From contig CAJNDT010000002.1 in assembly GCA_905221615.1 (NCBI GenBank), positions 1,491,923 to 1,555,922 of the forward strand: a stretch of DNA of 64,000 nt, given 5' to 3'. Of the stretch, positions 24,340-38,980 are shown in pieces. This DNA comes from Symbiodinium sp. CCMP2592. Taxonomy: Eukaryota; Sar; Dinophyceae; Suessiales; Symbiodiniaceae. The notes beneath the pieces are model-generated. The model saw only the letters and a program-made list of their open reading frames with translations, did not search any database and was not told where the DNA came from. The position numbers and the translations under genes are program-made. Position 1 is the stretch's first letter, and every line of letters begins with the position of its first letter.

Positions 24340-24362
24340 AAACCCTAAACCCTAAACCCTAA
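24340..24362. repeat. Telomere-like tract at the copia insertion site
   Basis: Three CCCTAAA units run directly into the left LTR. The last five bases (24358-24362, CCTAA) are the target site duplication, repeated at 34334-34338. The element therefore inserted at the edge of this tract. Confidence 0.9.
24358..24362. repeat. Target site duplication of the copia element, left
   Basis: CCTAA directly abuts the TG of the left LTR. The same five bases follow the right LTR at 34334-34338. Five bases is the usual copia target duplication. Confidence 0.9.
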
Positions 24363-24496
24363 TGCGAAGACTAGTCACTTTTCCGCAAAGCCGTAGGCTT
24401 GGTCCAAGGGGCCCCTGCGGTAGAGGGGAACGTCTGCAACCGTACAAAACGCTAGGTACACACACTGTACGCGCTGCAAAACAGGTTAGTTTCACA
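24363..24496 (-). repeat. 3' LTR of the copia element
   Basis: 134 bp, 133 identical to 34200-34333. Plus-strand ends are TGCGAAGAC...TTTCACA. It lies downstream of the gag-pol stop at 24544. Confidence 0.95.
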
Positions 24497-24543
24497 CCCG
24501 TGACTCTTACAGCGTCAGTGTGGTGAGACTTCGTGCTCAAGGA

Positions 24544-27500
24544 TCAACGGTCTTGCTCGTTGTCGTGTTCCTTCTTCGTCGACCTCCTCTGAAGCTGCTT
24601 GGCGCGCTTCTTCACGACACTCTCGAGCGGCTGCTCTACGTCGAGTGTGTTGGTCTTCAGGGCTTCAACCAACTTGACCGGCTCCATGACCTTCGTCAAT
24701 GGATCAGCGATCATCACGTCAGTGTCTATCCATCTGACGATGTCAGTTAACTGATCATCCACTGGCTTGTAGTCGTCGTAAAACGGATCTCCTGCTTTCT
24801 CGCCAGCTTTGCGCCATAGCTCCTGTCTGAGAGACGCGATCTCGATGCTCAATCTCTTGTCCGAATGCTTATTGCATTTCGGATTCGAAAGCGTCAGCTC
24901 CAGACTCTTGCAGTCTGTCATCCAGATCTGTTTCACAAACTTGGCCGACGTAGCCTCCCACCTTTTCATATCGAGGCATCCGAAGATGTCAGTGACAGCT
25001 GCCCTCAGCACGTCACCGTCCTCCACACCTGCCTGAAGTGTGTAGGCCTCTGCCTGTATGGTGGAGCGGCATACCCTCCGAACGAGGTTGCTCGCCCACA
25101 AGATGGGATGAATGCTACCTTTGTTCCCTTTCCACAGGGCGCCGTCCGTAAGAAACACCATCCTTGCACCTTGGCTCCGGTGTCCTTCCACAGATGTCAT
25201 CTCATTTATGATCATCTCTTCGGACTCATTCGCGTGAGAAGCGTCCGTGATCACCAAACTCAAAAGAGCACCTGGTGTCTTCCAGTCCAACAGCCCAGAC
25301 TTGAAAACAAGTCCTCTGTCGTATGTGCTAATAGCGTACTCGACCGCTTTGTTGGCATCTCTGATGTCAGCGACGGTACCATTGCTAGAAGCCGACTGGA
25401 TCTTGGATACCCTATAGCTTAAGTCGGGTCGGCATTGTCTGCAAACCCAAGCAAGGGACCCAGCGACGCTCTTCATCTGCGTCTTGTCAGAGTCCGTTAA
25501 GGGATCTCCCGGGTGCCTCCTCTTGTCAACGTGAATCTTGTTCACGTTCCTCGTTGTCTCGCTGCAGGTCACATGGATATTGAAATCCTCGTCTTGGCTT
25601 ATCTCCTTCCCGCAGTACCTGAAGCTCCCGGTCTCAACCTTCCCACATTTGAACGTCTCAATGAGATCGTTCATGATCCAATCGCATGACGGATCACAAG
25701 CCCACAATAGATCGTCTACGTGGGACGTCAAGAGCAACTGTACAACCCCATCGGCGTCGGTGTAACTGTACAACGCGCGGTAGATGCGGTTCTCGCGAAG
25801 TCCTTTACCCTTAAGGTAATTCCTAAGCCGCTTCCAAAACCGTCTACCTCCATCGGTGCTGCCGTAGATGGGTGCTCTCGCCAGCATGTGCTGGTGGGGC
25901 TTAAGCCCAGGGAGTCCTCCCTTGGGCTGAGATAGTAGAAGTACTCTATCTATCTCTTCGCCTTGAAAGTAGGCGTTGGTCACGTCCAGGGACTTAATCT
26001 TGACCTTCCTAGAAGAAGCGAACGAAAACACTAAGTTCTGAGCTTCTATGCTAGCAGTAGGGCTATCACTCCTAGGATCACCCTTCTCAAGATCACCCCG
26101 AACATCCAATCTACTCTTGTAGTTGGCTTCCACAGTAGGATCAAGTAACCTCTTGTTGTGGTTCTTGTCCAGCTCTACCCATTGGGTAGGTATGACTTGA
26201 TGTCCTTCACGGATCAACTCATCATACTGAGCGTCATCAAGAATGATCGCAGCACTGAAGTCCTGCCACTTTGCCCACTCCTTTGCTCTACTCTTGTCCA
26301 ACTCCTTCTGGACATCCTCAGGGCACTTGTGGTACATTAGGATCTTCCCGTGCTTCTCCTTCTGCTTCTTGGACGTAAAGTTCTTGCGGCGCTTGCGCCA
26401 CTGCGTCACCTTCTTGTCGTCCTCGACACGGTCTGCGAAGAAAACCCGTAAGGCCTCGTACTCCTTCTCCCCGGGGAGTGAGTTCCAAACGGTTCTTTCC
26501 TCTTTCGTCCAGAAGTGGCTAGCGTAAGCCCTCAGAAGAAGCGCTGAGCTACCTTCCGTGGCCTCGGCCTCACCGTCGGCGTCCACCGCCGTGTCCTCAG
26601 CCATCGGCTCTTGGATCCCTCCTGGAGGGTCCACCTGTTCGTCCTCTGGCTCCTCCACAGTCACGGCCCGTGACTCTTCACGTGTTGCTCCAACTCTCCT
26701 TCGAACAGCTCGTTCTGGAGCAGAGGCCGCAGTCTCCGGAGGATCTGCTTCAGCGTCCATTTGGATCGGAGTACCTATCCCAATTCCTCCGTCCGGTGGC
26801 TCTTCTGGGTCGTCTAGCAATAGATCATCCCCGGTGGCATCAATGTACCTTTGCTGCTCGCGTTCAACCTCCGCGTGCTCGTACTGTATGTTGCCACGGT
26901 TCAACACTTGGAACGCCAAAACCTCAGCCGATGTACACGGTCTGAGTCGCGCCAAGCTGGTCGCCACAGGCACGCCCTGATGCACCACCCAGACCGTTTT
27001 GTTATCGAAGCCAATTATTTTACTAACAGTTGACCACGTACTCACGCCTGAATGCTCATCTCGCGCGATCCTATAGCAAACTAGGTCGCCAGCTTGATAT
27101 TTCCCCGGCAGGGGGGCCGCCTTGCGCAACACGGTCTTTCGCACCCTGCGACTGCAATCCTCATGGACGAACGCCTTTCTTGCAGTATGGCGGAATTCGG
27201 CCTGACGGCCGAACGCAGTCGTGGCATCTAACCTGCCCGACAAGACTCCAAGCTGTCCTAGCTCTTCCTCGTCCAAAACGTGGCCCACTCCTCTGGGCAG
27301 GCGTCCAAGCACCCACTGGGTGGGGCTGAAGCCTCCAACACGCATGAACTCGTTCTTTGCGACCTGTGCCTCGAGCATCGCCACCTTGACATTATCTTTG
27401 CCCACAACGTTGTGGTCCTTGACCAAACGCTTAAAGGCTCGCTTTATGATGCCTCCGTGCCTTTCGCACTTCCCTATGTGCTCTGGCGATTCCAGTCCGG

Positions 27501-30500
27501 CTTGGCGGATCTGGACTCCATGGCTACCCAAGCCGTGAGCGAAAGCGCCCCGGTTGTGTAGACCACGGTCGTGGGAAACCACCTTTGGCCACCCAAAAGG
27601 GGAAACCCAGTGCTGCATGAACTTCTGCAAGCACTTGGCTGAGCTCGGCTGTCCGCCACCAACGCGGACCAAGGTCACAACTTGATAGCTTGTGCCGACA
27701 TCTATAATGTTCAGCCAGCTAAACTTTGCGCCTGTTGAGTCTGCAGTCTCCAGCACGTCCACCGAAACTGTGTGGTTGAACTCGTAAGGTGGTGGAGCTG
27801 ACACAGGGTGTGTGCGAACCTTCTCTTCGCTAACCCTGCAAGACTCACACTTGAAGATCTTAGCTGCATTCACCAACTCTTCAGAAGCACCTGCCCCACG
27901 GAGTACCTGCACTAGCACCTCCTTAGGCTTGTGGTTCATCATGGTGTGCAACCTCCTGATCCCCAAGCGAACACGCCGTGGTACCTTAGACCATGCCTTT
28001 CTCCTCTCAGACTCTTCTTTCGGAAACCCTGCTAAAGGCAACGTGTCTAAGATGTCTGCTTCCTCGGCGAGTTCCAGATCATCCATGAAAGTGGTCCTAT
28101 TATCTCTGGGATCCACTGTGGCATCTAGAGTACCAGTTTGCTCGACCTCATCCTGCCTTGCCTCAACAGGAAACGCTTCAGCAACGTGGTCCTCTACACA
28201 GCCCTCTTGCAACACAAGCAACAAGGTTTCGGCAAAACCAACTTGCGTGCCTACTGTGTCGATGCTCACAGGTGAGTAGTGTATGTCATGGTCACAGTTC
28301 GCCCAACTAGACATGACTTCACCTATCGCCTGCGAAAACGTCCCTACACACAGGTCACCCCTACACTGAAACAGCTGAAACTCTCTCTCAGTACCCTCGA
28401 CACTGTTCTCAAACCACAGGTTCCACCTAACACTGCCTAGACTGTCAAGAACAAGCACTTCTTTTGTGTACGCGGAGAGGGACTGGAGCCAGGTCTGTAC
28501 CTGCGGGGTGAGACCTACCTGGTCTTCCAAACTGTACACCAACAGCAGGAGGTCGGGACGGATCTTAGCAATCTCTTTAGAGATTTGCTTCTGCCAACCG
28601 ATGTCCTCCAGAAGGATCATACGGTAGCCAGGGTGTCGCACGATCACCTTGGCGCCGGTCCTCTCAAGGGATCCGGGCTGGAACTCCGAGTTCGCCAGGG
28701 CGTAGATCGTGGGCGGCTCGCCCGTGATCGCCACCGACGGGAGCCCCAAGGCCTGCATCAGCAGGTCGTCGTGCGTGTTGAGGTTCTTGCAAGAATCCTC
28801 AAACATCTTTCCGGTCTCCTTCTTCATCACTTTCAGGTCGGAAGCCATGAGATCCGGAAGCATGCCTCCAACGTAGAAGGCACTGCCACCGCGCGGCGGA
28901 ACCAAGAACACCAGCATGTGGCGCGGGTGTTGGTCCCAACGGTCGCCGAAGTAGACCCATTGGTGGGCTGCCACGTTCACTTCGCGCCACTCCCAGGGCC
29001 CATCGGACGTCCATTGGATCGCCACGCGCTTGCGGTAGCGCTGCAACTCTGTCGGGATTTTATCCCAGGAGTTTGCAGCGTGTGCCCTATAGGACACACG
29101 AACCGGTGCGCCTTCGTGCCCCACGCCTGGCTGTAACCAAGTTTTGAAGGCAACTTCACCGTGCCTCTTGTGTCCTGAGATCACTTGGCTCAAGTAACCC
29201 CCCGAGAGACTCCCCGGGTTGTTGGGGTTTTCCCCCAGACTTGCCAGGTCGTGGCGCGTCTCTGCGTGAGAAGTCGAGGCAGGGTTGGACTCGGTATGAG
29301 TCCTTGGGCCTCGAGGGTTGTTGTTCGGCCAGCGTCCCTTTTCTCCTCGGCCTTTTCCCTTACCCTTCTCACCTTTTCCTTTCTCTCCTCGCCCGTCGGC
29401 CTGTGCCGATCGGGTCCTTTCTCTTTGCGGTGGGTCCGCCGCCTGAGCGGTCGTCCTTCCAGCTGTGGTTGTGCCCGTTGGTGCCGCGGCCTTGTCCTCG
29501 TCCAGCTGGAGGATCGCCTGGTCCAGGCTTCGGTTTGCCAGCTCCAGGTCGGTGTCCCACTCCTTCTCCGTCCGCTTTCCGGATCGGACGTCTGCCACCA
29601 GCGACGACAGGAGTGCCCTCGCCGCCTCGTACTCCAAGTACTTCGCAGCAACGGCACAGGTGAGCGAGGTGTGGTCCGCCGCGTACTTGGCCACGAGCGT
29701 AGTGACTTCAGTAAGCTTCGCTGGGTTGAAGACACTATAAACCCTAGAAAGAAAAAGAAAACTTACCTTCTCAAGGGCCTTGTCATCTAGTCCTTCCAGC
29801 TCGGGCCGCAGGTCGTGGACCGGCACCGACACTCCCTCAGGGGTGTCCACCGTGTAGGGCTGCGCCGGTGCCTTCGAGCTGGCACTGGCCTCAGCTGCCC
29901 CAGTGGTGTCGCCCTCGTCGTGGGCCTCGTCTTCGAGCTGCTCGTCCTGCTGCTCGTCCTGAGCGGCCTCCTGCTCGGCAGGCGGGTCAGTGCTTGATCC
30001 CGCGCCTTCTGCCTGAGCTGTCCCCGAAGGGATCGGCTCTTCCACCACGACGCCATCGTCGCCTAAGCGGCGCTGGTCGTTCTTTCGCACCCACACCTTG
30101 GGCACGAACTCGAACCAGCGCTCCCTTGCGAAGTCCATCACCTTCTCTGCGGTGCTTCGAGCCTCCTTGGACTCCCAGTTGCACTCCGCGCAACCACCGC
30201 ATAGATATCGCCAATTGTAACCGTCGCAAAGGTGAAGTAGACTCGCCTCCACTTCGTACGTCTCCTTTATGAGATCGTACATGATCTTTGCATTCGAGAC
30301 AGACCTGTGTCTTCCCGATTTGCAAAACATGAAGATCACGCACTGCTCGTTCTCCTGGATGAGCTTGTGCACGGCCGGCACGACCTCCTTCATGAACGCC
30401 ACCCATTTTCCGTTCGTCTTTGGGTCCAAAACCATGGCTTGCACGTTCTTGGGGTACGTGCCTAAGTGGTCCCTGAGGGACTTGTCCTTGCCCGGGTCGT

Positions 30501-33500
30501 TCATGTGCCGGCAGTCCAGAAAAAGGATCTGCTCCGTGGCGTAGTCCCGGAAGGACTCAAAGTTCTGGCGCAGGCTTTCCAGAAGCGTGTCCTCGTGGGC
30601 CTCGTTGTTCAGCGAGAACTCGTGCGACTGCCCCTTTCGCATACCACGGATAAGTTCCGTGAGTCCACGGTAGGTGCCGCGCCCACGTTGGCAGGTCTCT
30701 AGCTTCTCCAAGCCCAACGTGACCACCAAAACGTTCTTCCGCTGCCCTTCGGTCTCCTTCACCATCTCGGACAGCATGAACGCCGCGCTGTCCTTGTCCC
30801 CTGAAGGGGTCAAGGTTTCTTTCTTGCGTGCCGTCCCGTCCCTCAAAGGGATCGAGAAAGTGCTCTTCTCCTTCTTAGATGTCCTCTTAGGGATCACCTC
30901 CGGATTCACTGCAAACTTTCTGTGCCTCTCTGTAACGTTCGCCCCAAACTGGCTCACGCACAGGAGGAGGAGGCCGGTCTTCGAGTGCCTCGCCAACTGC
31001 AGTGTCCCGGCGTAGCCCGAGATTCGGCACTCGCCGCGCCTCAGGTCCTTGATCAGGCCAAGCTGAACCTGATCCTGCAAGGACAGGAGGCAGAGCACGT
31101 CCGGAGAGTCCAGCTCCACGCTGGAGAGCTCTCCCTGCAGACGGGTGCTCCGGCGAAGGCCTCCGCTCTCCGGCATGATGCGGAGGGCGAACGGCATTGC
31201 GAACTTGCCCGTCGCTCGAGCCGCTCCAATGCCCTTGAAGCTCGCGCCGCTCGAGCGCACGCTGGTGAACTGCAACCCAAACTTTGCCAGGACCTTTGAG
31301 GAGTGAGCCCTCCATTTCGTCCCGTGGCATGTCTGGTTGCAGCCCTCGTCCAGCATCACCCAGACGTTTTCGTGGTCCTCTAAGGGATCCACGAGCTGGA
31401 GTTGCGGCTCAGCAATCTCCTCGTCCAGGGGTGCAGGCTCACTGTCTGAGCTCTGCACGCTCTTCGGGCTGATGTCTCCTTCGAGATCATCTCGCTGCAG
31501 CTGCCCCACCAAGGCTGTGAGGGTCAGCTTGGTGTCCCCTTCGGGATCACCACTCTTCTCCGCCGTCGCCACGCCGGCGAACTTTTCGCGGCTTCCCCAG
31601 CCCTTTCCGCTGGGAGTAGACGCCGCCATGGCGTCCCTAACAGCTGCTCCTCTCTCTCTCGGGCCAGCTGCTGCTGCGGCGGCGGGCGAAGCTTGCTCAC
31701 GAGGCTGTGCACTCCTACGCTCTCTACGTACTGGGGAAAACGCAGGCAAAGGTGGGGGCTCTACGTCCTGACTAGACCTAGCTACATCAGCGGCCCTACC
31801 ATGTTGCATGCGTAACTTCGTCTGCTCTACAACCTGGTCCATCGCATCCTCAAGGCAACTAGACAACTCGGTTGAACTGACTTGGTCAACTTTCAACAAA
31901 AACTTATCCATGTGCTTGAAGAACTTCTTTACCACCTCACCTGCCTCAAACTTCGTAAAGTTGTACTCCTCCAGTTGTCTCCTCGTGAGGTTCTGCACCT
32001 TGAGTGGAGACTGCTGCACCTGCTCGGCGAGTCCCTTCTGCTCCTTAAAGAGCTTCTGAGGGATTTCCTCTACCACAGTGCAACAATCAAGGCAAAAGGT
32101 GCGGTGTACCGATCTCGTGCTGTTCCTGTTGTCCGTGCGCTTGTGCTCGCACGTGAGGGGGTCATTCTTCGGTACGGCCTTTGGTCTCGGGTTTGAGGTC
32201 CTGTTACCGCACAACATGCAAGTGGTCTTGATTACGTGCGCATTGCTCCCTGCTTTGTTCAATGCATGTGCGGGACAGCCTCCAACGCACGGTCCTTTGG
32301 GATCCGGCTTCAACAACCCGAGCTTGCTCTTAGGTGCCTTCTCAAGGGTCACCTCCTTCCTAGCCTTCTGCAGCGAGTCGGCCTCCACCGGCAACGTGGC
32401 TGCCCTGAGTGTAGCCCTTCCACCGCCAACCGGTGGAACCTCAAAGTTGCGATACACCCAGACAAGCCATGCTTCTAGCATGGTGCTCGGCTCTTTCTCC
32501 TTGAGGCCCCAATGGTAGTAATCGGGGTGGTTCTGCAAAACCTCAAGGTAGGTGCTACCCCTATGCATCCCGAACCGAAACACTTGGTCGCTGCCGTCAG
32601 GGTACTCTATGGTATCCCATTCCGTGGAGGGAGCGCCTTGCGACGCAAAGTCGTCCAGGAGCTCTTCGTCGGACTCTTCAAAGTCAGTCCTGTCGAAGAA
32701 ACCCATGTACGCCGCAGGCTCCGTCTCCGAGTCCTGACCCAAGCTAACGTAGTTCGCTGTTGGCTCCGGGTCAAAGCTTTGACTCTCGCTGTCGCTCTCG
32801 CTGGGGCTAGCGATGAAGTCGCAGGTCTGTGTGGATTTATCCATCACACGCCTGACCTGGGCAAGGTGTGCCACTGCGGGCTTTCCTGCACCTTTCCCTG
32901 GGCCTGGGCATTCCTTGTCACCAGCCCAGTGGCCCTTTCTGCCACACGTTTTGCACGTGCTTCTGAGTTTAATCTCATGAAGCTTCCGTCTCCTGTCTTC
33001 AACAGTGAGACCGGTAGATCGCGGCCGATATCCATGTGCACTCCTCTGCATCACAGATTTACCTTTACCCTTAGCCTTGGCCCGCGCCATAAAGGCAACG
33101 GTCTCGCACTGCACGGTGTCTGCGAGAAACGCCAAAGCCTCTTTGTCTTCCTCATCGAACCCAGCGCCTATAAAGGCGGTGAAGACATCAAGCTCGACGT
33201 CCCTTAGGGAAGCGTCGGCCGACTGGGCAACACACGCGGTGTCCTCTTCCTTGTCGTACACGGGGAGCTCTTCTCCGTGGTACGCCCAGTCCTGCCCATC
33301 ACCGTCCTGGCCGTCCTGGTCCTCTTGTCCTGCCAGGTAGGCTGTTCCGTCGTCGTCTTCCTCGGCGTCAGGGTACTCGAAAAGGTCTTCCACGGCCGAA
33401 AGGTACGTGTAAGCAGTCCCTTTCTGGGATCTCTTTCCGTATCCTTTACCTTTTCCTCGGTCTCCCTTCCTGTGGAAACCTTTCCCTTTGCCAGTTCCGC

Positions 33501-34122
33501 CTTTGGCGGATGGCTGCTTTCGTTCCAACGTATGGATACGATTATGCATGCGAATCAGCGATGCTTCAGCATCCTTCGTCGCTGTGCTGCCTGACATCGA
33601 GGTCAGCACCATGAGTCGCTCTTGCCGGGTGAGCCCGCTGTTGTCCAGCAACAGATCTGTCAGCACCGCTTCACTTATGTGAAGGGCCTTGTCTAATTGC
33701 TGAAGCTTGCGTAGCCACCGCTTGCGGCGGTCGATGTAGGAGATCATTGGCTCTCCCGGCTGTCGTGACAACATGCCGCCGACTTGGGTCCCTAACCGAT
33801 AAAGTTCTTTCGTCTCTTGTTCCGCCAGAGGGAACAGGCGTTCTCTAACTGCCTCGATCACCTTGGGGATGTTTTGACTCGAGAACAAAACGTCGGTACC
33901 CAAATCCTCTGCGACAATGTATGCCTCGCTCCTTAAGGAGTCGAGGAACTTGGACGCAAGGTCGGATCTATCCTCAACCTTGGTCTGCTTCCACCTTGTC
34001 ATAGCTCGGAACTCCCACTCGTGAAAGTCACGAACGGTTCCGGCATAGACTAGGAAGCCAAACTTCGTCAGGTCTGTGTCCAGATCCTGGTGTGGTCGAT
34101 ATGCCAGCGATCCACTAGCCAT
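24544..34122 (-). CDS. Copia gag-pol polyprotein with extra domains
   Basis: One frame of 3192 codons encodes capsid, protease, integrase, reverse transcriptase and RNase H. The start is the ATG at 34122 in a strong context (GCCATGG); the frame is open a little further but only to a GTG. Approximate residues: gag 1-390; zinc knuckle CKTCGRKGHWAGDKEC 390-405; exonuclease-X-C-like FGMHRGSTYLEVLQNHPDYY 515-540; Cys-rich zinc-ribbon-like 612-680; protease-like LDEGCNQTCHG 920-930; RapZ-C/phosphatase-like segment 1130-1315 with FLDCRHMNDPG and CKSGRHRSVS; integrase HHCC 2052-2095, then Asp (VSVDVLE), Asp (SHDRG) and Glu (GKCERHGG) 2120-2217; RT 2600-2880 with LDVTNAYFQGE and SHVDDLLWA; RNase H 2955-3080 (TDASHANE, QAEAYTLQ, TDCKSLE). 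Two departures from the family: protease DEG for D[ST]G, and HVDD for YVDD. No stop or frameshift interrupts it. Confidence 0.93.
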   Translation of the reverse strand: MASGSLAYRPHQDLDTDLTKFGFLVYAGTVRDFHEWEFRAMTRWKQTKVEDRSDLASKFLDSLRSEAYIVAEDLGTDVLFSSQNIPKVIEAVRERLFPLAEQETKELYRLGTQVGGMLSRQPGEPMISYIDRRKRWLRKLQQLDKALHISEAVLTDLLLDNSGLTRQERLMVLTSMSGSTATKDAEASLIRMHNRIHTLERKQPSAKGGTGKGKGFHRKGDRGKGKGYGKRSQKGTAYTYLSAVEDLFEYPDAEEDDDGTAYLAGQEDQDGQDGDGQDWAYHGEELPVYDKEEDTACVAQSADASLRDVELDVFTAFIGAGFDEEDKEALAFLADTVQCETVAFMARAKAKGKGKSVMQRSAHGYRPRSTGLTVEDRRRKLHEIKLRSTCKTCGRKGHWAGDKECPGPGKGAGKPAVAHLAQVRRVMDKSTQTCDFIASPSESDSESQSFDPEPTANYVSLGQDSETEPAAYMGFFDRTDFEESDEELLDDFASQGAPSTEWDTIEYPDGSDQVFRFGMHRGSTYLEVLQNHPDYYHWGLKEKEPSTMLEAWLVWVYRNFEVPPVGGGRATLRAATLPVEADSLQKARKEVTLEKAPKSKLGLLKPDPKGPCVGGCPAHALNKAGSNAHVIKTTCMLCGNRTSNPRPKAVPKNDPLTCEHKRTDNRNSTRSVHRTFCLDCCTVVEEIPQKLFKEQKGLAEQVQQSPLKVQNLTRRQLEEYNFTKFEAGEVVKKFFKHMDKFLLKVDQVSSTELSSCLEDAMDQVVEQTKLRMQHGRAADVARSSQDVEPPPLPAFSPVRRERRSAQPREQASPAAAAAAGPRERGAAVRDAMAASTPSGKGWGSREKFAGVATAEKSGDPEGDTKLTLTALVGQLQRDDLEGDISPKSVQSSDSEPAPLDEEIAEPQLQLVDPLEDHENVWVMLDEGCNQTCHGTKWRAHSSKVLAKFGLQFTSVRSSGASFKGIGAARATGKFAMPFALRIMPESGGLRRSTRLQGELSSVELDSPDVLCLLSLQDQVQLGLIKDLRRGECRISGYAGTLQLARHSKTGLLLLCVSQFGANVTERHRKFAVNPEVIPKRTSKKEKSTFSIPLRDGTARKKETLTPSGDKDSAAFMLSEMVKETEGQRKNVLVVTLGLEKLETCQRGRGTYRGLTELIRGMRKGQSHEFSLNNEAHEDTLLESLRQNFESFRDYATEQILFLDCRHMNDPGKDKSLRDHLGTYPKNVQAMVLDPKTNGKWVAFMKEVVPAVHKLIQENEQCVIFMFCKSGRHRSVSNAKIMYDLIKETYEVEASLLHLCDGYNWRYLCGGCAECNWESKEARSTAEKVMDFARERWFEFVPKVWVRKNDQRRLGDDGVVVEEPIPSGTAQAEGAGSSTDPPAEQEAAQDEQQDEQLEDEAHDEGDTTGAAEASASSKAPAQPYTVDTPEGVSVPVHDLRPELEGLDDKALEKVSFLFLSRVYSVFNPAKLTEVTTLVAKYAADHTSLTCAVAAKYLEYEAARALLSSLVADVRSGKRTEKEWDTDLELANRSLDQAILQLDEDKAAAPTGTTTAGRTTAQAADPPQRERTRSAQADGRGEKGKGEKGKGKGRGEKGRWPNNNPRGPRTHTESNPASTSHAETRHDLASLGENPNNPGSLSGGYLSQVISGHKRHGEVAFKTWLQPGVGHEGAPVRVSYRAHAANSWDKIPTELQRYRKRVAIQWTSDGPWEWREVNVAAHQWVYFGDRWDQHPRHMLVFLVPPRGGSAFYVGGMLPDLMASDLKVMKKETGKMFEDSCKNLNTHDDLLMQALGLPSVAITGEPPTIYALANSEFQPGSLERTGAKVIVRHPGYRMILLEDIGWQKQISKEIAKIRPDLLLLVYSLEDQVGLTPQVQTWLQSLSAYTKEVLVLDSLGSVRWNLWFENSVEGTEREFQLFQCRGDLCVGTFSQAIGEVMSSWANCDHDIHYSPVSIDTVGTQVGFAETLLLVLQEGCVEDHVAEAFPVEARQDEVEQTGTLDATVDPRDNRTTFMDDLELAEEADILDTLPLAGFPKEESERRKAWSKVPRRVRLGIRRLHTMMNHKPKEVLVQVLRGAGASEELVNAAKIFKCESCRVSEEKVRTHPVSAPPPYEFNHTVSVDVLETADSTGAKFSWLNIIDVGTSYQVVTLVRVGGGQPSSAKCLQKFMQHWVSPFGWPKVVSHDRGLHNRGAFAHGLGSHGVQIRQAGLESPEHIGKCERHGGIIKRAFKRLVKDHNVVGKDNVKVAMLEAQVAKNEFMRVGGFSPTQWVLGRLPRGVGHVLDEEELGQLGVLSGRLDATTAFGRQAEFRHTARKAFVHEDCSRRVRKTVLRKAAPLPGKYQAGDLVCYRIARDEHSGVSTWSTVSKIIGFDNKTVWVVHQGVPVATSLARLRPCTSAEVLAFQVLNRGNIQYEHAEVEREQQRYIDATGDDLLLDDPEEPPDGGIGIGTPIQMDAEADPPETAASAPERAVRRRVGATREESRAVTVEEPEDEQVDPPGGIQEPMAEDTAVDADGEAEATEGSSALLLRAYASHFWTKEERTVWNSLPGEKEYEALRVFFADRVEDDKKVTQWRKRRKNFTSKKQKEKHGKILMYHKCPEDVQKELDKSRAKEWAKWQDFSAAIILDDAQYDELIREGHQVIPTQWVELDKNHNKRLLDPTVEANYKSRLDVRGDLEKGDPRSDSPTASIEAQNLVFSFASSRKVKIKSLDVTNAYFQGEEIDRVLLLSQPKGGLPGLKPHQHMLARAPIYGSTDGGRRFWKRLRNYLKGKGLRENRIYRALYSYTDADGVVQLLLTSHVDDLLWACDPSCDWIMNDLIETFKCGKVETGSFRYCGKEISQDEDFNIHVTCSETTRNVNKIHVDKRRHPGDPLTDSDKTQMKSVAGSLAWVCRQCRPDLSYRVSKIQSASSNGTVADIRDANKAVEYAISTYDRGLVFKSGLLDWKTPGALLSLVITDASHANESEEMIINEMTSVEGHRSQGARMVFLTDGALWKGNKGSIHPILWASNLVRRVCRSTIQAEAYTLQAGVEDGDVLRAAVTDIFGCLDMKRWEATSAKFVKQIWMTDCKSLELTLSNPKCNKHSDKRLSIEIASLRQELWRKAGEKAGDPFYDDYKPVDDQLTDIVRWIDTDVMIADPLTKVMEPVKLVEALKTNTLDVEQPLESVVKKRAKQLQRRSTKKEHDNEQDR
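29744..29766 (-). other. Intron-like 23-nt segment inside the copia frame
   Basis: On the minus strand this reads GTAAGT, a pyrimidine run, then CTAG followed by G, so it has canonical 5' and 3' splice signals in miniature. The unspliced frame is open, and removing 23 nt would shift it. It may be chance, a relic, or a regulatory splice. Confidence 0.3.
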
Positions 34123-34186
34123 GGCGACCACACGCCCGCGCAGGGGCGTACTATTGGGCTATGAGCTCTGGTTCTCTTAACCGAGA

Positions 34187-34198
34187 GCTCCGCTACCA
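34187..34198 (-). other. Primer binding site (tRNA-iMet-like)
   Basis: One base inside the 5' LTR the minus strand reads TGGTAGCGGAGC. This complements a tRNA 3' end GCTCCGCTACCA, close to eukaryotic initiator-Met tRNAs (acceptor AGC..., A73, CCA), the usual copia primer. Complementarity may extend to 34181. Confidence 0.75.
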
Positions 34199-34199
34199 G

Positions 34200-34333
34200 T
34201 GCGAAGACTAGTCACTTTTCCGCAAAGCCGTAGGCTTGGTCCAAGGGGCCCCTGCGGTAGAGGGGAACGTCTGCAACTGTACAAAACGCTAGGTACACAC
34301 ACTGTACGCGCTGCAAAACAGGTTAGTTTCACA
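34200..34333 (-). repeat. 5' LTR of the copia element
   Basis: 134 bp, with a single difference from the 3' LTR (T at 34278 versus C at 24441). It should carry the element's promoter, but no TATA-like box is obvious. Confidence 0.95.
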
Positions 34334-34338
34334 CCTAA
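34334..34338. repeat. Target site duplication of the copia element, right
   Basis: CCTAA immediately after the LTR end, matching 24358-24362. Confidence 0.9.
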
Positions 34339-37010: not shown

Positions 37011-37613
37011 TAAAGTCCAACCCTAGCTTCCCTGTCTCGAGGCGACCTGAACTGCCCTCGGCAGGTCGCCCCGTAGGCGTCGAACCCATCGCCTGTAGCA
37101 TCTATGCCATAATCGGGGGCCCTTAAACACAGGAAGAGGGCTGTGCTGCATCTGGGGTCCACGCGCTTCCTACTAGCCAGCCCGACTTAAGGTGCACATA
37201 CACCCTTCTCAAGGTTCGCAGGTAGAGCTTGGTCAGGGAAAGGCTTTAAAGTTGACGAGACCCGAAGATCCACGTGCAGCAGAGTCTTCTCATGATTCCA
37301 GATTGTCTTTTGCACGGTCCTCGCTTCAAACAGCCCTGGTCCAGACCTTGCGGACAATGAATTCGGATGGCCTGCGAATTAAACCGTGGGTCTTGGAGCT
37401 CTTGGCACTGCCAAAATGTGGAGGTCCCCAGCAGGCCGACATGTCGGGAAAGCTGGGGCTCCTATGCACGTCACCGTCACCGGTCAGCAACGGAAAATAC
37501 GAAAGCTTCACGTCGTGCTCAGGCTGCTTTCCGTGTTTGTGCAAACATCAGCACACGTTGTCCTAGGATCAAGACCAGGAGTAGGCGTAGCCGTAGTCGA
37601 ACTCGTATAGTAA

Positions 37614-38140
37614 AAGTAATAATAGTAGTATCAGTAGTAGTTGTAGTACTAATAGTAGTAGTAGTAGTAGTCGTCGTCGTAGTAGTAGTAGTAGTAGTCG
37701 TCGTCGTCGTCGTAGGCACAGTAGTAGGTCGTCGTCACAGTGCCAACAGCTGCTGCAGCAGCACTAGCAGCAGTCGCAGTCGCAGCCGCAGCAGCAGTAG
37801 GAGTAGTAGTTGTCGTCTCAATACAGTAGTCGGCGCAGCAGCAGCAGCAGCAGGAGCAGGAGCAGGAGTATGTAGGAGTAGTAGCAGTAGTAGCAGTAGT
37901 AGTAGTAGTAGTAGCAGTAGCAGTAGCAGTAGCAGTAGCAGTAGCAGTAGTACTAGTAGTAGCAGTAGTAGTAGCAGTAGTAGTCGTGGTAGTCGTCGTA
38001 GTAGTAGTAGTAGCAGCAGTAGCAGTAGTAGTAGTAGCAGCAGTAGCAGTAGGAGTAGGCGGAGTAGGAGTACGAGTAGCAGCAGTAGTAGTAGTAGTAG
38101 GAGTAGTAGTAGGAGTAGGAGTAGGAGTTGGAGTAGGAGT

Positions 38141-38226
<86 letters not shown>

Positions 38227-38365
38227 CAAGTAGCAATCGGAATAGGAGTGTAGCAGTAGAAGTAGAAGTAGAAGGAGTAGTAGTAGTCGTCGTAGTAGTA
38301 GTAGTAGTCGTAGTACGGTAGTAGCAGGAGCAGGAGCAGGAGCAGCAGCAGCAGCAGCAGCCGTA
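37614..38365. repeat. Long trinucleotide microsatellite (AGT/AGC/AGG)
   Basis: About 750 bases of imperfect AGT, AGC, AGG and CGT triplets, the largest simple repeat of the window. All six frames stay open over long spans and yield poly-Ser, poly-Val, poly-Leu or poly-Thr. These are repeat artefacts, not genes. Confidence 0.95.
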
Positions 38366-38980
38366 GCGGCACCTCTCGGGGCAGCCACAGACGGCACAAT
38401 CAGACAACAAAGGGCGACAACACAATAAGAAGGCACAAGAACAATCAAGATTAAACATCCAAAAGGAAACACCAACACTGCTTAGCTTGTCATACTCGCA
38501 GCAACGGGGAACTATGGTAACACCGTTGTTGACACCTGACACCACTCCAATGCTTCAAGAAGCATTATAATCGCAGTCGATTGGAAGTGTCGAGCTACCA
38601 GCAGACATAAATAATTCCTATCCCATAATTCGAACTGCTTGCAGTTGAAGCATTCACTCAATCGGAACACTACACTGAACTGAGAATCTGGAAGGCTGTA
38701 AGCAGCATGAGAGATAGAAGCAGACGGTTGTTTCAAAAACTCAAACCACGGTTCGAAGTTTGCCTCGAGTGGCTCCTTTTGGCAAAGACTTTCATGGATA
38801 AGGGCTAAGGCTAGAGGGATTTGGGGTTGTGGGTTTAAATTCCCCGGGTCAGGCTTTGGAAATCAAGTCTGTAGATGCCACGCATGCATCAGTGCAACGT
38901 GTGAACTTCTGTAGACACCACCGTGTCGAGGCGAACAAGTAGGCTTGGGTCGGCCTCGGCATGCGTCACTCTGTCTGTAA

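Follow-up and report, generated by a model that had tools for sequence, protein, structure and literature searches.

A RapZ C-terminal-like domain in the Gag-Pol of several copia retrotransposon families of Symbiodinium sp. CCMP2592

The C-terminal domain of the RapZ/YvcJ proteins (RapZ-C; PF22740; E. coli RapZ, PDB 5o5s) is known as a bacterial domain that binds small RNA and amino-sugar phosphates. In E. coli, the RapZ C-terminal domain alone is RNA-binding (PMC5737377; this and the other papers cited below are quoted from excerpts of their text). Retrotransposons that keep an accessory domain are also known: the dinoflagellate elements SymbioLINE-Dnmt and SymbioDIRS-Dnmt3 carry DNA methyltransferase (DNMT) domains, and the long terminal repeat (LTR) Copia elements of Symbiodinium are described, in the excerpted text, as having no DNMT domain (PMC5890265). 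Here, we analyzed a window of 64,000 nucleotides (the whole stretch, positions 1,491,923 to 1,555,922 of contig CAJNDT010000002.1) from Symbiodinium sp. CCMP2592, which contains a Ty1/copia retrotransposon on its minus strand. A RapZ-C domain sits between the protease-like motif and the integrase of the gag-pol frame of this element, and the domain is part of Gag-Pol in several divergent copia families, as well as of the first open reading frame (ORF1) of long interspersed nuclear element (LINE)-type elements, in this dinoflagellate. The finding resembles the DNMT retrotransposons in that an accessory domain is kept across retroelement lineages, and differs from them in the domain and in the element classes (LINE and DIRS in the excerpts of PMC5890265). 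As far as our searches reach, RapZ-C is new to such elements: no paper in open-licence PubMed Central, a collection that does not cover subscription papers and preprints, linked RapZ to a retrotransposon, to copia or to a dinoflagellate.

The core of the domain together with a Cys-rich tail was delimited by a profile match to 30163..30564 on the minus strand (frame residues 1199-1332). The motif ILFLDCRHMNDPG starts at 30528, with the D-x-R strand LDCRH (30505..30519) aligned to D182/R184 of E. coli RapZ; LRDHLGTY starts at 30477, and CKSGRHRSVS spans 30324-30295, its C-x5-R pocket loop CKSGRHRSV (30298..30324) being aligned to C247-V255. The tail, H..W..C-G-G-C-x2-C (30181..30240), is one whose H, W, C, G, C, and C are invariant in the ten members of alignment A3, and we infer that it binds zinc, perhaps as a zinc finger. 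Further upstream, the strand VLVVTLGLEKLE (30697..30732) is similar in family B and in the standalone gene L036, and is likely the first strand of RapZ-C. A sequence-only reading of the window had proposed a RapZ-C-like domain at 30170-30745, an interval that covers the profile core (30564-30163) and the conserved strand (30732-30697) well; its residue numbers agree with a numbering that begins at the first Met (34122). The D-x-R strand, the LR..G segment, and the C-x2-G-[KR]-HRSV loop are shared with RapZ in order and spacing. In contrast to RapZ, the domain of the window has no N-terminal kinase-like domain, a long stretch separates its presumed first strand from the D-x-R strand, the Cys-rich tail replaces the basic tail, H190 is not kept, and the whole lies inside a retroelement polyprotein.

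The assignment to RapZ-C in the sequence-only reading held in the profile searches. The window domain matched PF22740 with an E-value of 7.7e-11 (42.7 bits; gathering cut-off, 27 bits), and in a control of the Pfam search this family was found in six of 14 named genomes, all six being bacteria. When the ten cores of the dinoflagellate profile were searched against the PDB, the three best sequences were all E. coli RapZ (E-values of 0.0017, 0.0093, and 0.0098), and hhalign against E. coli RapZ-C gave an E-value of 1.1e-5 and a probability of 82. With families A and B left out of its training, a profile found the window segment at 6.4e-25; among 507 decoy ORFs and 200 shuffles, the best value with this profile was 1.2. 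The counterparts of D182, R184, C247, H252, and R253 of E. coli RapZ are identical in the window. A full RapZ was ruled out: NCBIfam RapZ (NF003828) scored 26.6 bits against a cut-off of 244, the match was confined to the C-terminal part, and an N-terminal Walker kinase domain is missing. Judged from these alignments and profiles, the domain is almost certainly homologous to RapZ-C.

Searches of the own genome (1.098-Gb assembly) yielded at least 81 matches to the domain protein (150 of 272 candidates scored), at least 151 to the reverse transcriptase (RT; 150 of 2207 scored), and at least 25 to PF22740 at E-values of 0.001 or less, all above the cut-off (150 of 198 scored). The RT and RapZ-C matches were paired by hand, and the distances were checked for families A and C. 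In family A (RT 98-100%), RapZ-C was found upstream on the same contig for 15 of the 15 listed RTs that span residues 1-213 or more of 241, at a distance of 4.5-4.8 kb in 14 and 15.9 kb in one. In family B (RT 78-80%), five of six carried the domain among the matches listed (none was listed for C323); C5299, counted in this family, has broken frames and a family-A-like RapZ-C. All 18 listed members of family C (RT 38-40%, RapZ-C about 25%) possessed it, 17 at 4.9-5.3 kb and one at 15.9 kb. Families D and E were absent from the first domain listing and were found via fetched copies: the domain occurs in one fetched copy and four of four further sites of family D (RT 40-41%), and in one fetched copy and two of four further sites of family E (RT 38%), the other two (L060 and L062) lying off the target position. 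It is also present in L079, of a C-like family (8e-19). Leave-one-out profiles were trained without the member tested and, for A/B, C, and the two LINE families, without its sister as well. They recovered ten of ten members at 2e-15 or better, and no decoy or shuffle in the ten runs scored better than 0.021; the correct position of the match was confirmed for B and LINE2. In blastp with the window frame, the protease-like and RapZ-C parts were collinear in B, C, D, and E (split into two segments in E), and the alignment to family F skipped RapZ-C. The sequence-only reading had named absence of the segment from related elements as grounds for rejection; the domain is present in B, C, D, and E, and is lacking in the two copies of family F (L042 and L078), in which, as in L075, no profile match below 0.04 was found. 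Both family F copies retain the protease-like motif and the RT; the integrase was found in L042 but not in the L078 frame, and family F is a long outlier in the integrase tree. Recent private capture by one copy is ruled out by the presence of the domain in several families.

Alignment A3 comprises ten dinoflagellate members, in which G33, C79, H84, R85, S86, V87, H109, W116, C120, G122, C123, and C126 are invariant. L072 (HRSS and a different tail), E. coli, and the phage sequence were omitted from A3 and from the training sets; L074 (without the last Cys), L053 (HPSV), and L071 (HTIV), later finds or judged decayed, also stand outside A3. Neither E. coli RapZ nor the phage locus L076 has the tail pattern H..W..C-x-G-x(0,1)-C-x2-C. 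Ratios of nonsynonymous to synonymous substitution (dN/dS) were calculated by the Nei-Gojobori method over a 130-codon core. In family A they were 0.09 for the window and L014, 0.05 for the window and L010, 0.00 for the window and L016, 0.10 for the window and L011, and 0.16 for L014 and L016; L034 and L035 (family C) gave 0.11, and L041 and L063 (family E) 0.08. Each of these seven pairs departed from neutrality (p < 0.001), and the pairs within a family are not independent of each other. The domain is thus under purifying selection in the sampled pairs of families A, C, and E, as the sequence-only reading had expected in calling it probably maintained and suggesting dN/dS across copies as a check. 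The comparison of the window with L031 gave 0.27 over 124 codons (dS 1.7), and the pooled ratio of nonsynonymous to synonymous differences (pN/pS) of the family D set was 0.51. The linker after the domain gave 0.27-0.50 where comparable, and the core differed from it in Fisher tests of four pairs (p = 0.0017, 0.0076, 0.0096, and 0.034). The stretch immediately upstream of the core ranged from 0 to 0.70, with the highest values in L016 pairs. The dS values were uneven along the elements, suggesting exchange between copies; L034 and L035 encode identical integrase proteins and yet show a dS of 0.27 in RapZ-C, a patchy exchange along the element. The domain is common to other mobile elements of this genome, which suggests an old and selected role in the life cycle of the elements, and its retention is very probably both old and selected.

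The second setting of the domain is the ORF1 of LINE-type elements. An ORF of L032 contains an OTU-like region (1.1e-4; 23.2 bits against a cut-off of 23.3) and a RapZ-C-like region (PF22740, 0.0013), and a LINE ORF2 lies 2 kb further on (RVT_1, 6.1e-12; endonuclease, 3.2e-11), the frame being broken between the two ORFs. A second copy, L038, resembles it at 97.5-97.7% over ORF1 and as far as the beginning of ORF2, and some 1.35 kb of additional sequence lies in between. In a second LINE family (L077), ORF1 is open over 2230 codons and matches OTU (0.011) and PF22740 (0.085), both under the cut-off; a profile lacking LINE members identified its RapZ-C at an independent E-value of 3.3e-22. An ORF2 of 1207 codons follows directly (RVT_1, 1.1e-13; endonuclease, 5.9e-11). 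The OTU-like cysteine protease domain adjoins RapZ-C in the ORF1 of L032, L038 (by eye), and L077; no paper on an OTU domain in Symbiodinium LINE retrotransposons was found in the same literature collection.

RapZ-C also occurs in standalone frames of about 260-430 codons, such as L036 (PF22740, 2.8e-10, over the cut-off) and L037 (0.0016, under it), which may be host genes or further mobile parts. L037 and L065-L070 are standalone multicopy frames, that of L037 being proline-rich; the pooled pN/pS of this set was 1.16 (21 pairs of seven sequences), which we read as relaxed or diversifying selection. The RapZ-C tree gave no origin and could not place the element copies relative to the standalone ones. 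Outside the dinoflagellate, searches of IMG/VR with the domain of the window, its integrase-RT, or profile A3 found no relatives, and profile A2 found one phage locus there (L076:3482-3850), a 122-aa RapZ-C-like gene adjoining terminase- and portal-like genes (named by eye). Phage RapZ-C-like proteins, namely L076 and phrog_18111 ('ATPase'), are likewise short proteins with a single RapZ-C-like domain; L076 differs from the domain of the window in being a short separate gene and in lacking the Cys-rich tail. The domain of the window had no match in the GTDB contigs and one in phage records (0.9), and L036 none in phage records or the PDB.

The host element spans 24363-34333 of the minus strand and was assigned to Ty1/copia on the basis of its LTRs, a target-site duplication, and an integrase ahead of the RT (RVT_2), the integrase being recognized via homology. 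The 5' LTR (34200..34333) and the 3' LTR (24363..24496), both on the minus strand and 134 bp long (5' LTR, TG...CA), differ at one position, and the 5-bp duplication CCTAA is found at 24358..24362, within a CCCTAAA repeat, and at 34334-34338; these features bear out the young insertion proposed from the sequence. The intact frame proposed with it also stood, as a single gag-pol frame of 3204 codons from stop to stop on the minus strand (24544..34158; first Met, 34122). Following the 5' LTR is TGGTAGCGGAGCTC (34185..34198, minus strand), which we take to be a putative primer-binding site, likely complementary to a tRNA. On the same strand, the frame contains a gag CCHC-like zinc knuckle (32908..32955; score under the Pfam cut-off), the protease-like motif LDEGCNQTCHG (31321..31353; by eye, in a stretch alignable with the other families), the integrase (27139..27903; motif and homology among families), and RVT_2 (25645..26205; Pfam, 1.9e-10). 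The integrase of the window had no Pfam match in the scanned interval 27000-28800, and that of family E matched rve at 1e-4 with a score under the cut-off. The order of gag knuckle, protease-like motif, integrase, and RVT_2, the LTRs, and the 5-bp duplication are those of Ty1/copia, from which the element differs by the extra RapZ-C between protease and integrase, the very long single frame, and the 134-bp LTRs.

Other accessory domains occur in related copia elements. In L041:3302-8500 (family E), integrase and RT are separated, within one frame, by a DUF488 domain (PF04343; 1.1e-11, over the cut-off), a further accessory domain carried by a copia element, the second after RapZ-C. An H-x-D ... 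H ... R pattern in the integrase-RT interval of L034, L041, and L079 resembles 2OG-Fe(II) oxygenases by eye; in Pfam, Tet_JBP (0.063) was the sole hint in L034, and none was obtained in L041. Family F shows, by eye, the DNA-methyltransferase-like motifs EIFAGAA, PVCTPW, and ENPW between the protease and the integrase or RT, a stretch without a Pfam match in L042. Around the element, a short CCCTAAA telomere-type repeat lies at the insertion site (24340-24362). Telomere targeting was not supported: among 33 exact LTR ends listed (first flank base not G), 22 adjoined the primer-binding site and 11 a genomic flank, and one of these 11 flanks, that of the window itself, was in such a repeat. An imperfect long GTA/GCA trinucleotide array is located at 37580-38400. 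The spliced-leader motif of dinoflagellates has 429 exact copies in the assembly, and its reversed control has none.

Several results weigh against the view that a RapZ-C module has been retained by old selection and acts on RNA. With regard to identity, phmmer with the window domain alone against the PDB did not find RapZ, the best matches being PAS proteins (0.036), and most members score below the PF22740 cut-off singly: B at 23.7, C at 15.2, D at 12.3, and E at 13.5 bits, and the two LINE members at 19.4 and 13.5 bits. The AlphaFold2 model, built from one sequence, was of too low a confidence to judge the PFK-like alpha/beta fold of 5o5s (predicted local distance difference test, 42.2; predicted template modelling score, 0.45), with an alpha/beta order of strands and helices; with this model, Foldseek returned nothing at 0.001 or less and no RapZ in the best 50 of 1044, the top rows being dihydrofolate reductases with TM scores of 0.2-0.3. 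With regard to history, the RT tree (midpoint root) joins A and B with the domain-less F, apart from C, D, and E (98/96 each); therefore, either F has lost the domain or it was acquired repeatedly. With regard to selection, the family D pair L040-L057 gave a dN/dS of 0.39 (p = 0.079) and the LINE pair 0.50 on eight changes, and the protease side is constrained comparably (0.14-0.30 within A and C); therefore, the selection is not special to RapZ-C. With regard to function, the pocket residue H190 is not conserved (it is G in the window, and a His follows the Pro in family D alone); K and S occupy the positions of T248 and G249; the window core lacks a basic character (17 K+R versus 19 D+E); and, in the excerpts of PMC7073468, the RNA-binding tail of RapZ is limited to Enterobacteriaceae, with the ligand pocket widely conserved.

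Among the roles considered, we place RNA binding first, at somewhat less than an even chance, followed by ligand sensing, catalysis, and interference with the host. Taken as a whole, the best explanation, for and against which we see the chances as about balanced, is that the domain is an RNA-binding, phosphate-pocket module of the ribonucleoprotein of the element. In E. coli RapZ, H190, T248, G249, H252, and R253, near C247, contact the stem-loop backbone of GlmZ; K170, C247, and the tested pocket residues are required for GlmZ cleavage and binding, and three nearby residues are dispensable (PMC9841335). From this set, the window keeps C247, H252, and R253. By analogy with the E. coli domain and GlmZ, the domain, either within the polyprotein or once released from it, would bind a stem-loop by its phosphate backbone through the conserved Cys/His/Arg loop. 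In place of the basic tail of E. coli it would use the Cys-rich tail, and the module might help to select, fold, package, or prime the RNA of the element, or might hold a host small RNA. The ORF1 of LINEs is usually their RNA-binding protein. We argue for a role in RNA or ribonucleoprotein from the presence of the domain in both Gag-Pol and LINE ORF1; caution is called for by a core that is not basic and by a ligand pocket that is broadly conserved. The binding of RNA or of a phosphorylated ligand, suggested by the sequence-only reading, is plausible, and RNA binding as such is a tentative assignment.

The limitation of the tail to Enterobacteriaceae and the wide conservation of the pocket mean that ligand sensing may be the older function. 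As a sensor, the domain would couple transposition to the metabolic state of the host (stress, for example) by binding a phosphorylated metabolite, be it a sugar phosphate or another. The C-terminal domain of RapZ on its own binds glucosamine-6-phosphate, through a putative site highly conserved in RapZ homologs of diverse bacteria, and D182 is required for its self-interaction (PMC7073468). The invariance of C and HRSV in the ten A3 members and the non-basic core of the window would suit such a sensor, but H190 is not conserved in the aligned dinoflagellate members (the adjacent His being confined to family D), and the same sensor in a LINE ORF1 is hard to explain; we regard a sensor as rather unlikely.

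The C-x5-R loop could instead be catalytic, making the domain a thiol phosphatase or hydrolase whose substrates might be nucleotides, the ends of RNA, or a host protein. The sequence-only reading had noted that the loop fits tyrosine-phosphatase-like folds: the motif is literally present (CKSGRHRS, from 30324 downwards), its Cys is invariant in alignments A1 to A3, and even C247S is inactive in RapZ, whose authors raise a possible catalytic function (PMC9841335). The assignment to tyrosine or dual-specificity phosphatases did not survive. The C-x5-R-[ST] loop is not diagnostic, because the RapZ loop is the same; the matches were weak (DSPc in the window, 0.12, 12.7 bits against 33.5; Y_phosphatase2 in family B, 0.033, 14.2 against 27; a protein tyrosine phosphatase chain in the PDB, 0.71); and RapZ-C ranked above the phosphatases in the Pfam searches of the window and family B and in the PDB. 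An enzyme is accordingly unlikely.

Similarly improbable is counter-defence or mimicry, in which the domain would have been taken from the standalone RapZ-C family of the host and would interfere with it or sequester host small RNAs. Standalone frames do exist, one multicopy family has a pN/pS of 1.16, as in conflict, and unrelated element classes share the domain. On the other hand, the tree cannot place the element copies relative to the standalone ones, which could belong to a mobile family themselves; purifying selection acts on the element cores of A, C, and E; and PADLOC gave no match for the domain. As a long shot, RapZ-C with the Cys-rich tail might be a dinoflagellate RNA-handling module, passed between LTR elements, LINEs, and standalone genes, that grips a stem-loop RNA specific to these cells (for example, the spliced-leader RNA or the leader of the element itself) and so lets the retroelements cope with a trans-spliced transcriptome. 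A chance motif or annotation artefact, for which the poor structure model matching nothing usable might speak, is refuted by the Pfam match, the leave-one-out recovery against decoys, and the dN/dS values, and its probability is negligible.

A domain known from bacteria for binding small RNA and amino-sugar phosphates is thus kept in eukaryotic retrotransposon polyproteins of two element classes, which gives a testable function to a part of the very long copia Gag-Pol of dinoflagellates and prompts one to ask how mobile elements came to carry a riboregulator domain of bacterial type.

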